A stretch of DNA of 64,000 nucleotides from Phytoactinopolyspora limicola. GTDB lineage: Bacteria; Actinomycetota; Actinomycetes; Jiangellales; Jiangellaceae. The notes beneath the pieces were generated by a model, which was given only the letters and a program-made list of their open reading frames with translations, was not told the origin of the DNA and did no database searches. Within the stretch, counting starts at the first letter, position 1. Every line of letters starts with the position of its first letter. The position numbers were made by a program, and so were the translations under genes. The stretch is from assembly GCF_011320225.1 (NCBI RefSeq), contig NZ_JAAOEN010000002.1, positions 496,584-560,583 on the forward strand. Reading direction: 5' to 3'. Positions 9,847-38,561 of the stretch are shown in pieces.

Positions 9847-12800
9847 TCACGGCCGGCCCACAACCAGGTGGTCGAGGTTGATCGCACCGCTATCGCCGGC
9901 GTCGTAGCCGAGTCGGACCGTGTGCGCCCCAGCGCTGAGACCGACGTCGAACTCCGCGTCGCCCCACTGACTCCAACTGCCCGTATGAGGCAGGGAGACC
10001 GTCCCGGCCGGTTGCCCGTCGATAGAGACGGTACGGGTGGCGGTGGAACCGGTGGCATTGGTGTAGCGGAACCGCAGCCGATGGGTGCCCGAGGTCTCGG
10101 CGTGGACGGCGAATTCCACGGCATCACCCGCCGACTCGAACTGGTCGACAAAGCCGGTGCCGGTATAGCCGCCGTGGTTGTTGTTGGTGCCGGTGTTGAT
10201 GTGTTCGGCGAATTCGGCTTCGTACGGTGCTTTGTGCACGCCGGACACAACGACGGTGCGGGTGCTGCCGCTCACGCCGAGCTTGACGTGGGTCAGCCCC
10301 TGCTCCGGGTCCCAGAACCAGCCATCGGGTGAATTCGCCAGGTCCGCCAGGCTGGACCGCTGGGTCACGGTGCTGCCGCCGACCGTGACCGACGCCGGCG
10401 CCGTGCTCGCCACCTGCAACGTTACCGGCTCACCGAGAGCTGGGACCGAGACGTCGACCTGCTGCCCGGCCCAGTTCTCGGTGACGTCGACGGTCCGGTG
10501 GGAACCCGCGGCGTCGTCGTAATAGTCGTACGACGACGACCCGGACGGGTAGATCCGGAACACCAGGTTCGTATGCGTGTCGACGTCGTTGCCGACACCA
10601 CTGCCCAGCTGATAGTCGTCGGCGAGGTCGAGTGGGATGATCGCGCCGGGCCGGGCGTACACCGGGATGGTGTCAAGACCCGCCCAGTACGTCTTGACAC
10701 CTGGCCCGGTGAACCGGCCGCCGTTCCAGACGTCGTACCACTCACCCTCGGGCACGTAGAACTCTTTGGTGTTCGTGCCGCCATCCGTGATGGGTGCGAC
10801 CAACAGTTGCTCGCCGAACATGTACTGCTCCTCCCAGTCGGCAGCGTCGGCGTCATGGGGGAAGGCGAAGCTCATCGCCCGCATCATCGGCGCACCGGTC
10901 TCCGCGCTACGCACCCCCTCGGTGTAGAGGTACGGCAGCAGATTCATCCGGACGTTCGCGAAGTGCCGGAAGGTCGGAATCACCGACGAGTTGCCGGTGC
11001 GGGCCTGCACGTTCCAGGGTGTGCGCGCCTCCGACGGGCTCGGGTCAGCCTTCTCCGAGTGGTACTGCATCACCGGCGAGAACGTGGCCTGCGCCGTGGA
11101 CCGCAAATACAGTTCAGCGCTGGGGAACGGTCCGGTGAATCCGGCGAGGTCCCACGCCCAGAACGGCACTCCGGACTGCCCAGCGCTCAGCCCGGCCCGG
11201 ATCGCCTCCTGGAAGGCACCGAACGTCGACGTCTGGTCGCCCGCCCAGAAGATCGAGGTCGACTGTGCTCCCGACGTACCGGCCCGGCTGAAGATGGTGC
11301 CGTCGTTGCCGGTCTTGGCCTGCACCTCGTCGTTGTACGCCTCCAGGTAGGAGTTCGGGTACGCGTTGTGCATCTCGGTGCCGTCCCGGCCGTCGGCGAA
11401 GGAGACGTCACGGCCGAAGACGAGTTCGCCGCCGTCGGTCTTGAACCCGTCGATGCCGATGTCGTCGAACAGGTAGGAGCGCTTGCTCATCCACCACTGG
11501 GTGGCGTCGGGGTCGGTGAAGTCCGGCACCAGGCTGTCGCCGAACCACTGTCCACTCGGCACTCGGTAGTCGCCGCCGTGGCCGCTGCCGACGACATACC
11601 CCTGGCTCTGTGCGTGACTCTTGTCGTTCAGGTGCTGCTGGGGAGCGGTGGGCGGGTTGACGTCGAAGTTCTCCTTCAACACGGGGATCTGCCACAGCAG
11701 CACCCGGATGCCCTGGTCATGTGCCTGCTCGACCATGGCCTTCGGATCCCGCCACGCAGTGCCGGAAGGGAAGGTGAGGTCGCTGTAGCTGAGATTGTCG
11801 CCACCGCCGACCGGGTTGTACGTGGCGCCGTGCCAGACGTAGAAGGTGGCCTCGTCGCTCCACTGTTCCAGCACCATCACCGAATGCGGGATGTCGTGCT
11901 GCTCCATGGCGGCCAGCTCGGCTTCGATCTCGTCCTGCGTGTTCCACTCGTTGGCCGAGGCCCACAGGCCAAAGCCCCACTTGGGCGGCAGCAACGGCCG
12001 GCCGGACACGTCGGTGTAGGCGTCGACGATCTCCTCGGGCGTTCCGGTGAAGACGTAGTAGTCGAGGGTCGCGTCCAGGCCGCCGCCGGTGTCCAGGGTG
12101 AACCCGGCCATGTCGCTGAGGTGGGTGCCGATGTTGAAGATCGAGTAGCGGGTGCTCGGGATGTACACGCCGTATCCGGCCGAGTTCAGGAAGAACGGCT
12201 TCGACAGGTAGGTGCGGCTGGTGCTGCCTTGGTCCAGATACTGGTTGTAGACGTAGTTGTGCACGTCGTGGCCACGCTGATCCAGCCGGTCATAACGTTC
12301 GCCGAAGCCCTCGAACCGCTCACCGGCCGGGGTGAGGTAGTGATCCTCGATCCGGGTCACGGTGGTGGCGCCATCGCTGGCCCAGCCGATGTTGTGGAAG
12401 ACGTTGGGGTCGTAGTGGCGGGTGATAAGGGTGGACCCGTCACCCTCGTACACGGAGAGCCGGAACGGCTGCTTCTGGATGGCCAGCACGAGGTCGCTGG
12501 TGGCCAGGCGCAGCTCGTCGCTGGTGTCGATCACGGTGTAGGCGCTGCTTCCGGAGATGCCCAGCCCTTGCCCCGTTGGGGCCACCTGGGCCCGGAAGCT
12601 GTCTGAGCTGGGGAAGGCGAAGCGGATCTTCGGGGTGAAGTCTCCTGCGCTGTCGCCGGTAATGACGTCCACCGAGGTGCCGTTATCGGTCACGGCGACG
12701 ACGTCGGTGACGTTGCTCCACGACGTGACGGTGAACGAGAACGGGCCGGTGTTCTTCTGATTGCCGCCGTTCACGTCGGCGTGCACGGTGTAGGAGATCT

Positions 12801-13179
12801 GGTCGCCACGGTCGAAGCTGCCCAGGTCGACCTGCCAGTAGCTGTTGTTGCCGCTGTTGTACTCCCAGCTCGCGCCGACGGGAGTCTGGTCGATGCCATT
12901 CTTCGTCCACGTCACCCACACTGACTGACCCGATTCGACCGGCCAGGTGGTGGCGTTGACGACGACGTTGTCGCCAGCCATCGGATCACGCGGCGCCCGC
13001 TCGGTGGATTCGGTGGAGTACAGCTCGTCGATGCCGTGGGGATCGTGGTGGATCCCGTCCAGCGCTTGGGCCGTCGTCGTCGGGACGATCATCGCCAGCG
13101 GTAAGAGCAAGGCTGACATCAGGATCGTCCGGATCGGGCGGCGGTGGGTTCGGGCAGATCGTCGTGGCGATGCGGACAT
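9847..13179 (-). CDS. ctsY: Secreted GH31 3-alpha-isomaltosyltransferase-like enzyme with CBM35
   Basis: A 1110-residue exported GH31 enzyme. After a signal peptide (cleavage near residue 39) the mature start DGIHHDPHGIDELY and the TERAPRDPMAGD, TTWPVESGQ and VWVTWTKNG segments match, from memory, the isomaltosyltransferase (CtsY) of Bacillus globisporus, which opens IDGVYHAPYGIDDLY and is also about 1090 residues. The barrel carries VMVLEQWSDE, the likely nucleophile D582 in GFKTDGGE and the likely acid/base D648 in FWAGDQ. The C-terminus is a CBM35 (YEAEFAEH, GYTGTGFVDQFE, INLDHLVV). In the known pathway this enzyme moves isomaltosyl units to form cyclic alternating alpha-1,3/1,6 tetrasaccharide. 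It is the first gene of the pair. Family assignment is firm, exact product inferred. Confidence 0.87.
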   Translation of the reverse strand: MSASPRRSARTHRRPIRTILMSALLLPLAMIVPTTTAQALDGIHHDPHGIDELYSTESTERAPRDPMAGDNVVVNATTWPVESGQSVWVTWTKNGIDQTPVGASWEYNSGNNSYWQVDLGSFDRGDQISYTVHADVNGGNQKNTGPFSFTVTSWSNVTDVVAVTDNGTSVDVITGDSAGDFTPKIRFAFPSSDSFRAQVAPTGQGLGISGSSAYTVIDTSDELRLATSDLVLAIQKQPFRLSVYEGDGSTLITRHYDPNVFHNIGWASDGATTVTRIEDHYLTPAGERFEGFGERYDRLDQRGHDVHNYVYNQYLDQGSTSRTYLSKPFFLNSAGYGVYIPSTRYSIFNIGTHLSDMAGFTLDTGGGLDATLDYYVFTGTPEEIVDAYTDVSGRPLLPPKWGFGLWASANEWNTQDEIEAELAAMEQHDIPHSVMVLEQWSDEATFYVWHGATYNPVGGGDNLSYSDLTFPSGTAWRDPKAMVEQAHDQGIRVLLWQIPVLKENFDVNPPTAPQQHLNDKSHAQSQGYVVGSGHGGDYRVPSGQWFGDSLVPDFTDPDATQWWMSKRSYLFDDIGIDGFKTDGGELVFGRDVSFADGRDGTEMHNAYPNSYLEAYNDEVQAKTGNDGTIFSRAGTSGAQSTSIFWAGDQTSTFGAFQEAIRAGLSAGQSGVPFWAWDLAGFTGPFPSAELYLRSTAQATFSPVMQYHSEKADPSPSEARTPWNVQARTGNSSVIPTFRHFANVRMNLLPYLYTEGVRSAETGAPMMRAMSFAFPHDADAADWEEQYMFGEQLLVAPITDGGTNTKEFYVPEGEWYDVWNGGRFTGPGVKTYWAGLDTIPVYARPGAIIPLDLADDYQLGSGVGNDVDTHTNLVFRIYPSGSSSYDYYDDAAGSHRTVDVTENWAGQQVDVSVPALGEPVTLQVASTAPASVTVGGSTVTQRSSLADLANSPDGWFWDPEQGLTHVKLGVSGSTRTVVVSGVHKAPYEAEFAEHINTGTNNNHGGYTGTGFVDQFESAGDAVEFAVHAETSGTHRLRFRYTNATGSTATRTVSIDGQPAGTVSLPHTGSWSQWGDAEFDVGLSAGAHTVRLGYDAGDSGAINLDHLVVGRP

Positions 13180-13194
13180 CCGACCCCCTATTTG

Positions 13195-13228
13195 GGACTA
13201 AATTTAGAGATAAATTAACGGAGGAGAG
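13195..13228 (-). promoter_or_regulatory. AT-rich leader of the GH31 operon
   Basis: In an otherwise GC-rich region, 13195-13220 is strikingly AT-rich and contains TAAATTTA and TTTAGAGATAAA dyads, directly before a GGGGG stretch that serves as the ribosome site for the gene starting at 13179. This is a likely promoter and operator for the two GH31 genes; no regulator gene is adjacent. Confidence 0.4.
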
Positions 13229-13292
13229 ATGTGCCGTCAATGGTCCGCGGCGATCCCTCGACATAACCCCGGAGCCGACTTATGCCCTCCTT

Positions 13293-13350
13293 CCCATGAT
13301 CATGAACACTTTGCCGTGCGATCGCACGGCAAAGTGTTCATGATCATGGG
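13293..13350. repeat. Palindromic repeat, subtype B (copy 1)
   Basis: Perfect 58-base loopless palindrome centred on GCGATCGC. The arms read CCCATGATCATGAACAC then TTTGCCGTGC. It lies between the GH31 operon promoter and the 3' end of the SIS gene. Subtype B copies also occur at 14651 and 16206. Confidence 0.9.
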
Positions 13351-13380
13351 GACAAAGGAATGGGGTGCGACCCCGACCGC

Positions 13381-14394
13381 TCAGGCGGGGCGGCCCAGGC
13401 CGAGGGCAAGGTAGGCGGCGGCATACCGACCGATGGCCAGCAGGGTGACGAACCGGCCGATTTCGGGTCCATCGGCGACCCGGACCGGATGGATCCGCAC
13501 CGACGACGCCTCAGCCGTCTCTTGCAGCCGCCGTCGCGCCGCGTCGATCATCGGCGATGTCGCGCCGTCGTCGAGGATAAGCAGCGCGGGACCCAGCGGT
13601 GCCGGGCCGTCCTCGAACGGATCGGCGAAAACATCCACCTCGGGGGCATCCGCCAACAAGGGCACCAGTTGGGCGTCATCTCCGGCCACCGCGGGGCGTC
13701 CGCTGGCCCGGCGCAGGTTCTCGGCCAGCCGCCGCGCCGCCCGGGCGGCGAGCACCGAACCACCCCAAACCAGCGGCGTGCTGTCGGCGAGGACCAGGGC
13801 CAATTCCTTAGCGGGGTTCTCGTCCGCGCTCACCGATGGTGCGCAGTTCTCCGCGACCTCGTCGAGCAGTTCGGCAACTGGCTCGGCGTCGACCTCCGGG
13901 CCCAGCCCCAGTCGGTGCAGCGCCGCCAACACCGGCACCGCGAGTGCTGTCGGCTCGGAACTGCCGGCCGGCAGGAAGACGGTTCCGCGGCCAGCCGAGA
14001 TCTCGTGCAGGTTGGACCCCGCCGGGGCAGCGACCAACAAGGCGCAACCACGGCGTCGCGCCTCGTGCACCGCTGACAGCTCGTCGGATCCCGCGTCGTC
14101 CGCACAGACGACCACGACGAGGTCGAGCGGGCCGGCCCATCCCGGTAGCCCTGGATGTGGCCAGGCGACGAACGGCACCGGACAGACCGGCTCGAGGACG
14201 GCTCGGAACAGCCGGCCGTCTGGACCCCCGGCGACGACGGCCCGTGGCCGGTCGCTCGGCTCCAGCCCAGCCAGCGCATCGGCCGCGGCGGTGTTCGCGC
14301 GGCGAACCTGCGCACCCCAACCGGCCAGCTCCCGGAGAACGTCGTCGATGCTGGCCAGGGCTGCCGGATCGTCGAGCGAGGAGTCGAAGAACAT
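13381..14394 (-). CDS. TobH-like SIS-domain protein (putative phosphosugar isomerase)
   Basis: A 337-residue protein that corresponds in position to the M. tuberculosis Rv3256c/TobH-type protein found between manA and manB. It has an N-terminal sugar-isomerase-like half (RAVVAGGPDGRLFRAVLEP, DLVVVVCADDAGSDELSAVHEARRRG) and a second SIS-like half (TPLVWGGSVLAARAARRLAENL). Members are sometimes annotated as bifunctional glucose/mannose-6-phosphate isomerase, but catalytic competence is uncertain here. ATG 14394 is preceded by GAAGG at good spacing; the frame remains open upstream across the Trm112 gene but is not protein-like there. It is probably co-transcribed with trm112-like and manB. Confidence 0.75.
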   Translation of the reverse strand: MFFDSSLDDPAALASIDDVLRELAGWGAQVRRANTAAADALAGLEPSDRPRAVVAGGPDGRLFRAVLEPVCPVPFVAWPHPGLPGWAGPLDLVVVVCADDAGSDELSAVHEARRRGCALLVAAPAGSNLHEISAGRGTVFLPAGSSEPTALAVPVLAALHRLGLGPEVDAEPVAELLDEVAENCAPSVSADENPAKELALVLADSTPLVWGGSVLAARAARRLAENLRRASGRPAVAGDDAQLVPLLADAPEVDVFADPFEDGPAPLGPALLILDDGATSPMIDAARRRLQETAEASSVRIHPVRVADGPEIGRFVTLLAIGRYAAAYLALGLGRPA

Positions 14395-14437
14395 GCTCAC
14401 ACCTTCAGAGGTTCGCGCGGTGGGGACAGCCGCGATG

Positions 14438-14635
14438 TTACGGATCGGTCGGCGTCCGGGCCTCGTCCACCAGCAGCACGGGGACGCCGTCGCGCACCGG
14501 GTACACCCGGGCGCAGCCAGTACAGGCCAGCTCGACGGAGGTGGCGGGTGCGCCGTCGTCAGCGGGTCCGACATCGAGTCGGCCGTGACACGCCGGGCAG
14601 ACGATCACGTCAGCCAGCAATGGATCGAGCTTCAT
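14438..14635 (-). CDS. Trm112 family zinc-ribbon-like small protein
   Basis: A 65-residue protein with a CPAC...CTGC pair of Cys knuckles (residues about 14-17 and 39-42) and a VYPVRDGVPVLLVDEAR tail, which is the Trm112/UPF0434 pattern. In eukaryotes Trm112 is a methyltransferase partner; the bacterial role is not established. ATG 14635 has AAGGAG five bases upstream, so it is preferred over the GTG directly before it. In actinobacteria this small gene typically sits beside manB and the TobH-like gene, as here. Confidence 0.85.
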   Translation of the reverse strand: MKLDPLLADVIVCPACHGRLDVGPADDGAPATSVELACTGCARVYPVRDGVPVLLVDEARTPTDP

Positions 14636-14650
14636 CACCTCTCCTTCCGC

Positions 14651-14700
14651 TGATCATGAACACTTTGCCGGGCTATAGCCCGGCAAAGTGTTCATGATCA
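14651..14700. repeat. Palindromic repeat, subtype B (copy 2)
   Basis: Perfect 50-base loopless palindrome with TGATCATGAACACTTTGCCG arms and centre GGCTATAGCC. It separates manB from the Trm112 gene within one operon and contains the manB stop codon (14698-14700). A complete hairpin here could attenuate or stabilise the transcript between manB and the downstream genes. Confidence 0.9.
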
Positions 14701-16140
14701 TGGGGTGGTCTCGGGGTTTCGGATCACGTCGAGGACATCGTCGCGCACCCGCTCCATGGTGGCTTCGTCGGCACCCTCCACGTTCAACCGCAGCAGCGGC
14801 TCGGTGTTGGACGGCCGGACGTTGAACCACCACATAGGGCTCCCAGTGTGCTCCACCGTTAGCCCGTCGAGGTGGTCGATTCCCACATCGGAGCGACCCT
14901 CGAACATAGCCTGCACCGCGGCGAGCGTGGCCGACGTGTCATCAACCCGGCTGTTGATCTCCCCGGACGCGGCGTAGCGAGTGTAAGGGACGAGCATGGC
15001 TGATAGTGGTTCGCCGACCGTCCCCAGCGCCGCCAGCGTGTGCAGAGCGGCGAGCATCCCGGAATCGGCCCGCCAGAAGTCACGGAAGTAGAAGTGCGCC
15101 GAGTGCTCACCGCCGAACACCGCACCCGTCTCGGCCATCTGCTGTTTGATCAGCGAGTGCCCGACCGGGGTGCGCACCGGCACGCCACCGTGTTCGACGA
15201 CGATCTCCGGGACCGCGCGGGAGGTGATGAGGTTGTGTACCACCACCGAGCCAGGCGCTCGCCGCAGTTCCCGCACCGCGATCAGACCGGTCAGCGCCGA
15301 CGGGGAGACTGTTTCGCCTTGCTCGTCGACCACGAAGCACCGGTCGGCATCGCCATCGAAGGCCAACCCCAGGTCGGCGCCCCGGGCCACCACTTCCCGC
15401 TGCAGGTCGACCATGTTGGCCGGCTCGATCGGATTGGCCTCGTGATGCGGGAAGGTGCCGTCGAGCTCGAAGTACATCGGAATCACCGTGAGGCCGGGCA
15501 GGTCGAGCACGGCAGGCACGGTGTGTCCGGCCATGCCGTTGCCGGCGTCCACCACCACCGTCAGCGGACGGATGTCGCTGAGGTCGACGAGCTGGTGGAG
15601 GTACTCGGCGTAGCCGGCCAGCACGTCACGGCGCTCCACCCGTCCTGGCACCACGGCGTCGCTGTGCAGACTGCGATCGGCCATGCTGGGCAGCTGCGAC
15701 ACCCAGCTGTCGCGCCGGTTCGCGGTGTCGGACAGCTCCCGTTCGGCGTGCGCCCTGATCTCGGCCAGACCGGTGTCGCGGCCCACTGGGACCGCACCGG
15801 ACCGGCAGAATTTGATGCCGTTGTACTCGGCGGGATTGTGGCTTGCGGTGAACATGGCGCCGGGCAGGTCCAACGAACCGCTGGCGTAGTAGAGCTGATC
15901 GGTAGAGGCCAGACCGATGTTGACGACGTCGACACCACGCGCCGTGACGCCGCCGGCGAACGCGGCCACGAGGGCGGGCGACGTCGGCCGCATATCGTGA
16001 CCGACGACGATGGCCGGCGCTTCACCGGCGAGCACGTCGGCGGCGGCTGTGCCGAAGCACCGCGCCACGTCGACGTCCCACTGGTCAGGCACCACTCCAC
16101 GCACGTCATACGCCTTGACGATCGCTCCGAGGTCACGCAC
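14698..16140 (-). CDS. manB: Phosphomannomutase/phosphoglucomutase
   Basis: Interconverts mannose-6-phosphate and mannose-1-phosphate (and possibly the glucose equivalents), between ManA and GDP-mannose synthesis. The 480-residue protein has all four alpha-D-phosphohexomutase parts: the active-site serine loop MFTASHNPAEYNG near residues 97-109, the metal-binding DGDADR loop near 258-263, a sugar-binding GGEHSAH motif and the phosphate-binding RPSNTEPLLRLNVE motif near 450. It heads the run manB, trm112-like, SIS protein, all on the minus strand. Its 3' end runs into the palindrome at 14651. Confidence 0.95.
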   Translation of the reverse strand: MRDLGAIVKAYDVRGVVPDQWDVDVARCFGTAAADVLAGEAPAIVVGHDMRPTSPALVAAFAGGVTARGVDVVNIGLASTDQLYYASGSLDLPGAMFTASHNPAEYNGIKFCRSGAVPVGRDTGLAEIRAHAERELSDTANRRDSWVSQLPSMADRSLHSDAVVPGRVERRDVLAGYAEYLHQLVDLSDIRPLTVVVDAGNGMAGHTVPAVLDLPGLTVIPMYFELDGTFPHHEANPIEPANMVDLQREVVARGADLGLAFDGDADRCFVVDEQGETVSPSALTGLIAVRELRRAPGSVVVHNLITSRAVPEIVVEHGGVPVRTPVGHSLIKQQMAETGAVFGGEHSAHFYFRDFWRADSGMLAALHTLAALGTVGEPLSAMLVPYTRYAASGEINSRVDDTSATLAAVQAMFEGRSDVGIDHLDGLTVEHTGSPMWWFNVRPSNTEPLLRLNVEGADEATMERVRDDVLDVIRNPETTP

Positions 16141-33618: not shown

Positions 33619-35877
33619 TCAGACGGCGGCGGTGTTACGACGAGCGCGGAGCGCGATCGCGGCGCCACCGGCAGCCAGCAGGCCGACGCCGACCAGGATG
33701 ATCGGCAGCGTGCTCGAACCGGTGTCGGGCAGCTCGGTGTCATCGTCGTCGTCATCGTCGTCCCGGGTGACGACCGTGAAGTCGACCGAGGCCTCCGAGT
33801 CGGTCAGCTCCGGGTCGCCATCCTCGACGGTGGCGAAGGCGGTGAACGTGTACTCGCCGTCCGCCAGCGCCTCGTCGGGGGTGAAGGACCAGTTGCCGTC
33901 CTCGTCGATCTCGAACTCACCTTCCCAGGTGACCATGTCCTCGTCCTCGTCAGCCGGAACGGCTTCGTCGGACGCGGCGCTGAGGGTGGCCTCCTCGTCG
34001 GCCTGGCTCAGGGTGCCCTCGATCTGCAGCCCGATCAGAGCGCCGGGGAACGAGGTGCCCTCGAAGACGACGTCACCAGCAACCTCGTCGCCCTCAGCCG
34101 GGACCGTGATGCTGACCGACGGCAAGGTGATGCCGAGGTCGGACACAACCACGCTCTGCACGTCGTCGCCGGCTACCTGCGTCACGGTGGCGTCGAAACG
34201 CTGACCGCGCGGCAGGTTGGACTCGGGCGAGAGCTCCCAGGTGCCGTCGTCGGCGACAGTGGTGTCACCGAACTCGTTGTCGCCCACCGTCAGCGAGACA
34301 TCGGCGCCGGGCTCACCGGTGCCCTCGAACGGCGGACGCGGGTTGCTGGTGGTCTGGCCGTCGTTCGGCGAGTCCACAACAAGCGGCTCGACGTCGGGCT
34401 CAGGCTCGCCCTCGGTCACCGTGAAGGAGCCGCTGGCGACACCGGACTGCGAGAAGTTGCCGTAGAAGGCCTGCGCCTCGTAGGCGTATTCCGCGCCGAC
34501 CTCGAGCTCGTCGTCCAACGAGATGGCGAAGGTGCCGTTGGCGGTCAGGTCCGCCTCGAAGTCACCCAGCTCGTCGATGCTGACCTCAACCCGGTGGTTG
34601 GCACCAGCGTTGTCGACCGAACCCTCGATGGTGGTGCCGGCCTCGCTCGTCAGCGCCTCGTCGATGGACGGGTCGTTGACGTCGACGTTCAGCTCCCACT
34701 CGGCGCCGTAAAGCCCGAAGGCGCTGAACTCGGAGCCGCCGTCCGGGCCCTCGACCGCGTAACCGATACCCCAGCCGGACTGGTCGCAGCTGGAGAAGGT
34801 GGAGCCGGAGTTGACACCCAGGGCGTAGTTACCAACAACGATGGAGCCACCGCTGTCGCCGCCCAGCATGCAGGCGTCGAAGATGAAGCCGGTGACGGTC
34901 TCGCCGCTACCGAATTCGACCGACCGCTCGGCCTCCGAGATCGTGCCGCAGGTCCAGCCGGAGGTGGCGCCGGACTTGCAGGCCTCGGCGCCAACGACGG
35001 CACCGATGGAGTCATAGACGGTGACGGTCTCGTCGTCAGGGTGGCCAGTGCTGCCGCCCCAACCCGCCACCAGCGGAGCACCCTCCCAGGCGCTGCCGGT
35101 CACGTTGATCAGACCACCGTCGTGGCCGTCGAAGCCCGGGCCGAAGTTGAACGAACCGCCGGCGACCTCACCGACGTGCTCACCCGGGATCTCGCCCCAG
35201 ATGTCGTCATCGACCATGATCGGAGCGTCGAGCTCCAGGTGGTACGCCGGGATGTCGAACTCGTCGTAGTCGTCGTCGACACCACAGTGGCCCGCGGTGA
35301 AGAACTGGTCGGCGCCACCGGAGGTGTAGCCACTGAACCCGACCGAACAACGCAGGAAGCCACCGAAGTGGTCGTCGTCGTCAAGCGGGAAGTAGTAGCC
35401 GTAACCACCCTTGTGGTCGCGCTTCAGCTCCCAGTCGTAACCGGAGTAGTCACCAGACTCGGGCTCTCCGACCTTGACGTTGGCGCCGACCGCTACGGCC
35501 GCGTCGACGTCCGCGTCGGCGGACACGTAGATGGTGACGTCCTGGCCGTCGATGGCCACGCCCTCGATGCCCACGCCGGCAGCACTGAGGCTGGCGGCGA
35601 CCTCGGACGCGGACTTGGCGGCCTCGGCGTTGGCCAGGTACTGCTCGGCCGAGATGCCTAGGTCGCGCTGGATTGCATCTTTGAGGCCGGACGGCAAAGC
35701 CGCCGCCTGCGCAGCGAAGTCCGCGGCCTCAAAGGTCTCTAATGCTGCTTCTGGTGTGGATTCGTCTGCGTACGCGACGCCGGTGACGGCGAATGCGCCC
35801 GTACCGACGAGCGCCGAAGCGGCCACAACGCTGGCCAACCTCCGGGCGCCGCGATAGCGGCCCATGGAGTTACTCAC
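33619..35877 (-). CDS. Secreted S1 (streptogrisin-like) protease with LPXTG cell-wall anchor
   Basis: A 752-residue secreted serine protease. Order: signal peptide (to about 37, AYA-DE), an alpha-lytic/streptogrisin-type propeptide region (about 45-140, LPSGLKDAIQRDLGISAEQY), then the catalytic domain with H197 (TAGHC), D253 (GHDGG) and S342 (GGDSGG). After it come Ig-like/Big repeats rich in Asp and Glu (about 385-690), an eight-Asp run and a sorting signal LPDTG (716-720), a hydrophobic helix and RARRN tail. GTG 35877 has GGAG six bases upstream. The protein would be covalently attached to peptidoglycan by a sortase. A paralogue with a broken active site is directly upstream. Confidence 0.92.
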   Translation of the reverse strand: MSNSMGRYRGARRLASVVAASALVGTGAFAVTGVAYADESTPEAALETFEAADFAAQAAALPSGLKDAIQRDLGISAEQYLANAEAAKSASEVAASLSAAGVGIEGVAIDGQDVTIYVSADADVDAAVAVGANVKVGEPESGDYSGYDWELKRDHKGGYGYYFPLDDDDHFGGFLRCSVGFSGYTSGGADQFFTAGHCGVDDDYDEFDIPAYHLELDAPIMVDDDIWGEIPGEHVGEVAGGSFNFGPGFDGHDGGLINVTGSAWEGAPLVAGWGGSTGHPDDETVTVYDSIGAVVGAEACKSGATSGWTCGTISEAERSVEFGSGETVTGFIFDACMLGGDSGGSIVVGNYALGVNSGSTFSSCDQSGWGIGYAVEGPDGGSEFSAFGLYGAEWELNVDVNDPSIDEALTSEAGTTIEGSVDNAGANHRVEVSIDELGDFEADLTANGTFAISLDDELEVGAEYAYEAQAFYGNFSQSGVASGSFTVTEGEPEPDVEPLVVDSPNDGQTTSNPRPPFEGTGEPGADVSLTVGDNEFGDTTVADDGTWELSPESNLPRGQRFDATVTQVAGDDVQSVVVSDLGITLPSVSITVPAEGDEVAGDVVFEGTSFPGALIGLQIEGTLSQADEEATLSAASDEAVPADEDEDMVTWEGEFEIDEDGNWSFTPDEALADGEYTFTAFATVEDGDPELTDSEASVDFTVVTRDDDDDDDDTELPDTGSSTLPIILVGVGLLAAGGAAIALRARRNTAAV

Positions 35878-36179: not shown

Positions 36180-38561
36180 TCACACGGTCGCGCGGCGGTG
36201 CGCAGTGACGAAGATCACGCCACCAGCCATAAGCAGCACCACCGCAGCCATCACCGGCCCACCCACCACCGAGCCGGTCTGAGCAAGGTCGTCCTCGCTT
36301 GCCGCCGCGTCGGCCCGGGCCGATTCCGTCGGCTGAGCCCCGATCTCCAGCGCCACGGCAGCCGACCGCTCCGATGTGAGGTCGTCTACCGCTTGCACGG
36401 CGCTGACCGCGTACCGACCCGGCGGCAGATCAACCGACTCGACCTTCCATTGGCCGTCCGTGTCCGCCACTGTCACGTGTTCGCCTACCCGTGTGCCAGC
36501 GTCGGCAGCAGAGTCACCCATACCCGGATCTGCGGCCTCCCCGCTGTCCGAGCTGTTGGTGGAGTCGCCCGGCTGGACCCGCACAGCCACCGTGCTGCCA
36601 GGTGCCGCCGTTCCGCGGAAGCTGTAGCCGCCGTCGGGCTCTTCCTCGGAAGCAACGACCATAGGCGCGCCGGGGACGATCCCGATCCGCTCGACGGCGA
36701 CGTCGTCGGTACTCGCGGTGGTTTCCTGCGTGATCGTGGCGTCGAACCGACCCGCTCGCTCGGCCGGGCTGGGAGATAGCGACCAGGTGCCGTCGTCGGC
36801 GACGATCGCGGCCGTGGAAGACCCGTCGAACGCAAGAGTGATCCGTGCGCCTGGGTCTCCCGTGCCCGAGAACCGGGGCTGAGCGGCAGTGGTGGTCTCG
36901 CCGCTGGTCGGCGACTGGACGACAAGGGTGGCGACCTCAGCAACCTCAAAGGAACCTTCGACCGGCGCAGAAGTGACCACCCGCTCGCCACCCACCGGGG
37001 TGTGTGCGGCGGTAATGGTGTAGGTGTGCCGGCCCGGCGTTAATGGTTCCTCGACCGGAATCCGCCAGCTGCCGTCCGCCTTGACCGCCGCCTCGACCGT
37101 TTCGCCATCAATCCGCACGGTGACGTTGGCCCCAGCCGCTGCGTCGATACGACCCCGGAACGTCGGCCTCTGGCCGGTGACGTCGCCGTCGACCGGAGCC
37201 TTCACCTCAGGGGCGCCGACGTGGACGGCCAGCCGCCAGCCGCTTCCATGCAGCGCGCCAACCTTCGGCTCACCACTGGTCAACGGATATCCGACACTCA
37301 CCTGTACGTCCTGGGCGGGGCCGGCACAGTCGGCATCCGTGCGGGTCGATCCGGATACCACACCCACCGCGTAGTAACCCACGACGATCGGCCCGCCACC
37401 ATCGCCGGGCACAGCGCAGGCGTCGAGCAGGAAGCCGGTCACGTCCTCGCCGTTGACCGGTACCGTCGCCTCCGTCGCGACGACGGTGCCACAGGTCCAT
37501 CCGGAGGAGACCCCGGCCTTACACGCCGGGGCGCCGGCCAGCGGCGCGATAGCGTCGAACACCGGCAGGCTGCGGCCTTGCCCGGCCGCGCCGTCGGGGG
37601 CCGCCACCCGGGGTCGTAGCCCGACGTCGTCGCGTAGCACGTCGAGGACGGCCATATCGTGTCCACCGCCGAAAGAGATATCTCGGGCGACGAGGTCGCC
37701 ATCGGTGTTGGGCTCTTCTGCCGACTCGTCGGGCTTCAGCAGCCCGTCGGTGAGATCGTCGAGCAAGGTGTTGTCGTCAGTGTCGGCCTCGTCGGTGCCG
37801 GCCTCGTCGGTGTCATCGGCCACCAACCGGTCCGATCCCGCCACACTGATCGGACCGTCGACACCAGTCGGCCCACCGCCGGCGCAGTGCGCAGCGGTGA
37901 TGGCGGCCGGGCCGGCCTCGGCGGTGGTTCCGTTGAACCCGGCCGAACACGTCGCGAAGCCGTCGTCGTGTTCGGTCACGATCGCGAAACCACCGGAGAG
38001 TCGTTCGGCCCAGGGCCCGATGTCCGGCGCGTCGGAGGACAGAGCCGGCTCGGCGGAGATGGCGGCCTCGACGGGGACGAGGTTGTCGGCGCGGCGGTCA
38101 GCGAAGGCGATCTGTCCCTGTGACCGGGCAGCCCGCACGGCATCGGCCAACGCGTCGCCCACGTGTACGGAGGCGCCGGTGGCGGCGACCACGGCGGTGT
38201 CGCCCCGGTTGTTCACGCTGACGTGCAACGTCTCCCCGTCCAACCATGCCGAACTCACCAGCTCGCCCAGCGAGTCGACGACGTCCACGGCGACTTTGGC
38301 GGCGGCGGCTCGAGCTAGGTAACGCTGCGGGGAGATGCCGAGATCGCGCTCGATGGCAGCGACCAGATCGGCGGGTAGTTCGGCGGCCGGAGCGGAGAAC
38401 TCCGCCGGGTCGAAGTCTCGCATGACGACGTCAGGAACCGGCGCCTCGTCGAATTCTTCGTCGGTGATGGCGGCTGCACCGACACCGGTGGCCGCGGCAA
38501 AGACCAAGGAAGACGTCAGTGTCGCGAGCGTGAGACGCTGCCCGACCGCTCGAGCACCCAT
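36180..38561 (-). CDS. Wall-anchored S1 protease paralogue lacking the catalytic serine (LAQTG)
   Basis: A 793-residue paralogue of the preceding protease. ATG 38561 has GGGAG six bases upstream. It has a signal peptide, the same propeptide-like stretch (LPADLVAAIERDLGISPQRY), H225 (ITAAHC) and D302 (GGGHDMAVL), but the serine motif reads VPGDGGGPIVVG, so glycine 388 replaces the catalytic serine (GGT codon at that place). The cysteines around it are retained. An acidic insertion (about 249-289) lies between His and Asp. Ig-like repeats follow, then LAQTG (759-763), a helix and HRRATV. The fold seems preserved, so a non-catalytic binding role is more likely than simple decay. Confidence 0.88.
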   Translation of the reverse strand: MGARAVGQRLTLATLTSSLVFAAATGVGAAAITDEEFDEAPVPDVVMRDFDPAEFSAPAAELPADLVAAIERDLGISPQRYLARAAAAKVAVDVVDSLGELVSSAWLDGETLHVSVNNRGDTAVVAATGASVHVGDALADAVRAARSQGQIAFADRRADNLVPVEAAISAEPALSSDAPDIGPWAERLSGGFAIVTEHDDGFATCSAGFNGTTAEAGPAAITAAHCAGGGPTGVDGPISVAGSDRLVADDTDEAGTDEADTDDNTLLDDLTDGLLKPDESAEEPNTDGDLVARDISFGGGHDMAVLDVLRDDVGLRPRVAAPDGAAGQGRSLPVFDAIAPLAGAPACKAGVSSGWTCGTVVATEATVPVNGEDVTGFLLDACAVPGDGGGPIVVGYYAVGVVSGSTRTDADCAGPAQDVQVSVGYPLTSGEPKVGALHGSGWRLAVHVGAPEVKAPVDGDVTGQRPTFRGRIDAAAGANVTVRIDGETVEAAVKADGSWRIPVEEPLTPGRHTYTITAAHTPVGGERVVTSAPVEGSFEVAEVATLVVQSPTSGETTTAAQPRFSGTGDPGARITLAFDGSSTAAIVADDGTWSLSPSPAERAGRFDATITQETTASTDDVAVERIGIVPGAPMVVASEEEPDGGYSFRGTAAPGSTVAVRVQPGDSTNSSDSGEAADPGMGDSAADAGTRVGEHVTVADTDGQWKVESVDLPPGRYAVSAVQAVDDLTSERSAAVALEIGAQPTESARADAAASEDDLAQTGSVVGGPVMAAVVLLMAGGVIFVTAHRRATV

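Follow-up and report, generated by a model that had tools for sequence, protein, structure and literature searches.

The window analysed here, a stretch of 64,000 nucleotides from Phytoactinopolyspora limicola, encodes a protein that, on sequence comparison, is very likely a conserved non-catalytic protein. The whole of the observations is probably best explained by a conserved pseudoprotease of the alpha-lytic/streptogrisin type of S1 proteases, which would bind rather than cut. What we describe is a protease look-alike of a soil actinobacterium that lacks the cutting Ser, remains intact yet catalytically broken across the whole genus, and always lies beside an active-looking sister.

The translation of the gene is free of stop codons. 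The parts of the protein follow each other in the order signal-peptide-like start, prodomain, S1 domain, Ig-like repeats, LAQTG, hydrophobic segment, and basic tail (Table 1). A sequence-only reading of this DNA had listed a 793-codon open frame, the cysteines, a signal-peptide-like start, Ig-like repeats, and a sorting signal, all of which were found; its prodomain-like segment is borne out by hhalign homology to streptogrisin-type prodomains. The protease domain contains six cysteines. Consistent with the same reading, codons at 37887, 37656, and 37398 show that His and Asp are kept and that the Ser codon, within PGDGGG, is GGT. Gly388 thus takes the place of the Ser in the Ser-His-Asp triad of an active enzyme, and catalysis by a canonical triad is predicted to be impossible. 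The triad that had been assigned to the neighbour, H197/D253/S342 with Ser in GGDSGG, is recovered when the sister is translated from GTG at 35877, and Ser342 is encoded by AGC.

Table 1. Features of the putative pseudoprotease gene and its sister in the window
Feature	Position	Strand	Remarks
Pseudoprotease gene	36180..38561	-	793 aa; ATG at 38561; alternative start is TTG 6 bases upstream
Signal-peptide-like N-terminus, residues 1-31	38469..38561	-	Read from sequence
Alpha-lytic/streptogrisin-type prodomain, residues 49-186	38004..38417	-	hhalign; AlphaFold model
S1 (alpha-lytic-like) protease domain, catalytically broken, residues 187-445	37227..38003	-	phmmer to PDB; Foldseek
His225 (CAC), catalytic, kept	37887..37889	-	Alignment and codon
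Acidic insertion in the His-Asp interval, residues 245-286	37704..37829	-	Common to the dead Phytoactinopolyspora clade
Asp302 (GAT), catalytic, kept	37656..37658	-	Alignment and codon
Gly388 (GGT) at catalytic Ser position, within PGDGGG	37398..37400	-	Alignment and codon
Ig-like repeats and linker, residues 446-758	36288..37226	-	Pfam Big_13, E 5.5e-14; NCBIfam Ca_tandemer repeat, E 2.6e-18
Sorting signal LAQTG, TM segment, and basic tail	36183..36287 (LAQTG at 36273-36287)	-	Sequence
Sister protease, intact triad H197/D253/S342, LPDTG signal	33619..35877	-	302 bases downstream of pseudoprotease gene; GTG start at 35877

In phmmer searches of the PDB, alpha-lytic-type enzymes are returned for both proteins of the pair (window protein against 2ea3, E 1.1e-7). 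AlphaFold models of prodomain plus protease domain have pTM values of 0.82 for the pseudoprotease and 0.87 for the sister, with pLDDT mostly 92-98 in the prodomain core of the former. Both models match alpha-lytic protease, streptogrisins, and relatives; specifically, Foldseek aligns the pseudoprotease model with alpha-lytic protease 2alp at E 1.1e-10 and TMt 0.86. The hhalign alignment to 28 streptogrisin-type proteins spans prodomain and protease domain (E 1.7e-40) and matches the three triad motifs to TAAHC, GHDMA, and PGDGGG, indicating that the absent Ser is not an alignment slip. The Pfam prodomain model PF02983 alone matched neither protein of the pair. By its aligned prodomain and modelled fold, the window protein is an alpha-lytic/streptogrisin-type S1 protein by descent.

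LAXTG is the substrate motif of class E sortases (PMC5148588). The window protein carries LAQTG followed by a TM segment and a basic tail, and the host genome encodes four sortases, two of which score over the NCBIfam class E cut-off. From these features, a class E sortase probably attaches the protein to the wall via LAXTG. The sorting signals differ within the pair, with LAQTG in the dead and LPDTG (33718-33732) in the active protein. Among the Jiangella orthologues of the upstream gene, nine have no recognisable LAXTG and keep a C-terminal TM-like segment.

The pseudoprotease and its sister are about 36-39% identical in sequence. Across Jiangellaceae, orthologues of the pseudoprotease gene are the upstream member of a tandem pair, and the order of upstream gene and sister on the same strand is kept in nearly every genome wherever the contig allows; in J. 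rhizosphaerae (G014), the contig ends at the sister gene, so that the upstream position falls outside it. The other neighbours vary while the pair order is kept, indicating that the pair is an inherited unit. In P. endophytica (L038, G018), both downstream sister copies (10419-13086 and 13090-15431) are split over two frames and the pseudoprotease frame is intact; the split copies may be frameshift errors (the assembly is 93% complete) or true pseudogenes. Two Phytoactinopolyspora-clade genomes carry, between pseudoprotease and sister, an extra, highly divergent paralogue with intact PGDSGG (L040:7824-9416 (-) and L041:8240-10201 (-)), which falls on a long branch together with a paralogue from Jiangella. 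An uncultured Microbacteriaceae (L087, 5521-11941) has a tandem pair of larger relatives with CVQPGDSG in both, which suggests that paired wall-type S1 proteases also occur outside Jiangellaceae.

The comparison set comprised 22 Jiangellaceae genomes (Phytoactinopolyspora, Jiangella, and Haloactinopolyspora). Relatives were gathered by an alignment-based search of genome contigs; a single-protein query had given no matches. In the tree of 57 relatives, 19 upstream genes split from 38 other paralogues with support of 100. Among the 19, six Phytoactinopolyspora-clade genes stand apart from 13 others with support of 100/100, and the same six species form one clade in the rpoB tree. One Jiangella genome (L097/G006, a single 7.7 Mb contig) has repeated rpoB copies close to where the contig ends, and one copy is fragmented; the assembly probably contains an unresolved overlap of a circular chromosome. 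Protein identity within the clade is 48-56%, and the orthologue closest to the window protein (G020) reaches about 56%.

According to alignment and codons, the triad is broken in all six clade genes, in one of the 13 other orthologues, and in none of the 38 other paralogues; H/D/S is intact in the remaining 12 orthologues and in 38/38 other paralogues. Such recurrence within the clade exceeds what chance would give. Specifically, the triad reads H/D/G in the window species, P. alkaliphila, and P. endophytica, R/D/G in P. halotolerans, Q/D/M in P. halophila, and H/S/S in G020; the broken orthologue outside the clade, from Jiangella anatolica, reads H/D/G. The lesions in the clade are Ser to Gly in four of six members (with His to Arg in one of them), Ser to Met with His to Gln, and a displaced Asp, and each of the three triad positions is altered in at least one of the six dead proteins. 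The displaced Asp is that of G020, where the Asp column holds Ser and an Asp lies one residue earlier. With His and Ser retained, G020 might keep weak activity. The catalytic Ser codon is AGC in all intact orthologues and TCG in G020. Conservation of the Gly, which the sequence-only reading had proposed to check, stands in part: triad loss is conserved throughout the clade, but Gly itself is found in four members only, one having Met and G020 Ser.

Ancestral history was derived from parsimony counts only. The fewest changes on the tree are two for the intact or broken state and four for the serine column. Given the minimum of two, the simplest history is that the triad was lost once, early, in the clade and once in J. 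anatolica; separate triad losses may have occurred within the clade. Judged from the sequences, the loss of Ser in J. anatolica is independent of that in the clade. TCG is not one step from AGC, so the Ser of G020 was probably regained after loss. The sequences show that, in an ancient tandem pair of proteases, the upstream gene lost its triad in the Phytoactinopolyspora lineage, while its orthologues are intact in most Jiangella and Haloactinopolyspora. The loss probably began with Ser to Gly near the base of the clade, and His, Asp, and Ser would have drifted later.

His and Asp are separated by 47-55 residues in the 12 intact orthologues. The acidic insertion lengthens this spacing to 77-90 residues in the six dead proteins, and in J. 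anatolica the spacing is 25 residues. Several protease-domain residues that do not vary among the 12 intact orthologues are preserved in every one of the six dead proteins: the six Cys, Gly386, Asp387, Gly389, and, in the substrate-strand SGST, Gly404/Thr406. As far as alignment and model indicate, the dead protein retains its fold and a large part of the cleft.

The frame is open in each of the seven broken genes, over about 750-930 codons. In the codon model, dN/dS of the dead clade is 0.039 for the prodomain, 0.078 for the protease domain, 0.052 for the first two Ig repeats, and 0.054 for the third; the active sister of the same species has 0.031, 0.058, and 0.102 for the prodomain, protease domain, and first two Ig repeats. 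Since dS is saturated, these values are rough, and the only safe reading is "far below 1", which holds for every domain and is the outcome of the comparison of synonymous and non-synonymous rates suggested beforehand. Relaxed selection peculiar to the dead protease domain was also considered. The protease-domain rate relative to the flanks is 1.40 in the dead clade and 0.84 in active orthologues, which looked positive, but the sister has corresponding ratios of 1.46 in dead-clade species and 0.65 in the others. With the same shift in the active sister, the ratio gives no evidence of relaxation specific to the dead protein; nor do these rates demonstrate that binding constrains the dead domain in particular. 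Orthologues with intact Ser together with relaxed selection had been named as grounds for refutation: such orthologues exist in Jiangella and Haloactinopolyspora, but the analysis detected no relaxation confined to the pseudoprotease.

A sequencing or assembly error at the Ser codon has practically no chance of being the explanation. Nothing except the codon of one genome speaks for it, and it is in effect ruled out by the orthologues, with GGC at the same codon in three separately sequenced members of the genus and other lesions elsewhere. The gene might instead be decaying on its way to loss, with catalysis made redundant by duplication and the remainder uneroded so far. Such decay fits the drift of more triad residues in several members (H>R, H>Q, D>S), the remodelled His-Asp loop, and the high protein divergence of the clade. 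It is nevertheless very unlikely, because every broken gene keeps an open frame under low dN/dS in every domain, Cys, Gly, and cleft residues are retained, the conservation of prodomain and Ig repeats matches that in relatives, and the lesion is old, being common to a genus with saturated synonymous sites. The sequences thus argue that the gene is neither an error nor decaying. As expected of a pseudoprotease, essential residues are lost from an intact and conserved protein, all six clade members being broken with open frames. The preserved, non-catalytic pseudoprotease postulated in the sequence-only reading is therefore upheld by the orthologues, their differing lesions, the open frames, and purifying selection; the functions suggested there (substrate binding, decoy, or regulator of the sister) are candidate roles.

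Two other explanations accept a conserved protein and place its function outside the protease domain. The protein could be a wall adhesin or structural protein with functional Ig-like repeats, the protease domain serving as scaffold only. The strongest family matches are indeed to the Ig-like repeats, and the first two repeats are among the more conserved parts of the dead clade (39% invariant columns, compared with 17% in the protease domain). However, the same repeats occur in the active sister, and a mere spacer would not need the protease fold and all the cysteines that are kept, so we regard this explanation as unlikely. Alternatively, the prodomain could be the functional part, serving the active sister in trans as a foldase or inhibitor. 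Alpha-lytic prodomains are foldases and inhibitors, homologous prodomains are present in both paralogues, and, of the sites that do not vary among active orthologues, the dead clade preserves 78% in the prodomain compared with 47% in the protease domain. The sister carries its own prodomain, however, and cross-binding may not occur at the low identity of the pair, which makes a role in trans quite improbable.

For the pseudoprotease that we favour, the following mechanism is proposed. Alpha-lytic-type enzymes remove their own prodomain. Without a nucleophile, self-removal would be impossible, so the protein, from what is known of the family, probably keeps its prodomain; in the dead clade, the prodomain could be removed by another protease, the sister included. 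The uncleaved pro-form would be displayed on the wall via LAXTG and a class E sortase. The S1 fold and Ig-like repeats would bind and not cut, using the cleft, the prodomain, or the Ig repeats, and the protein would most likely capture a polypeptide and/or assist or restrain the active sister. This binding or partner mechanism is drawn by analogy and is tentative, with somewhat less than an even chance. It is conceivable, though doubtful, that the protein is a wall-displayed alpha-lytic-type pseudoprotease from a family in which catalysis was lost at least twice, and an obligate partner (adaptor, decoy, or prodomain-donating regulator) of the adjacent active protease.

Jiangellaceae contain dead and active orthologues of one gene, each beside the same active sister and comparable species by species, and what a protease does after it has ceased to cut is directly testable in this family. 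S1 pseudoproteases are common in animals and few are documented in bacteria; the accessible part of a prokaryote survey gives serine protease homologues as two of 247 S1 proteins from 91 genomes (PMC2605481). Those homologues, like the window protein, are S1 proteins without catalytic residues, but a conserved wall-anchored clade is not described in that part of the survey. No publication dealing with a wall-anchored pseudoprotease of the streptogrisin type came up in our limited literature search, and such a paper may exist.

The window protein shares the fold, disulfide cysteines, GD.GG loop, and prodomain with alpha-lytic protease and streptogrisins (MEROPS S1E type; 2alp, 2pfe, and 2oua), and differs from them by the absence of the catalytic Ser and the presence of the acidic His-Asp insertion, Ig repeats, and wall anchor. 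UmbA lectins of Streptomyces umbrella particles likewise have an actinobacterial trypsin-like domain with an incomplete triad, which binds an extended chain in its cleft and does not cleave it (PMC11062931); by analogy, the window protein may bind in this way. Unlike the window protein, with its prodomain and sorting signal, UmbA binds UmbB in a secreted particle and has lectin domains. Pfam and NCBIfam scans of the window protein gave no lectin match, and none of the ORFs read was an umb-like neighbour. MamO, which is needed for MamE-dependent proteolysis without a triad of its own and evolved repeatedly, is similar in having a bacterial trypsin fold whose triad was lost after duplication, in being kept beside an active relative, and in independent losses in several lineages (PMC4794232). 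MamO is HtrA-like, fused to a membrane transporter, and metal-binding, whereas the window protein has a secreted alpha-lytic-type domain, prodomain, Ig repeats, and wall anchor; Pfam and NCBIfam scans detected no transporter or HtrA-type domain in it, and its best PDB matches are of the alpha-lytic type. The Jiangellaceae pair would be a second bacterial example of a protease pair in which one partner has lost catalysis more than once and, if the dead protein is an obligate partner of its active sister, a Gram-positive surface counterpart of the dead/live MamO/MamE pairing.
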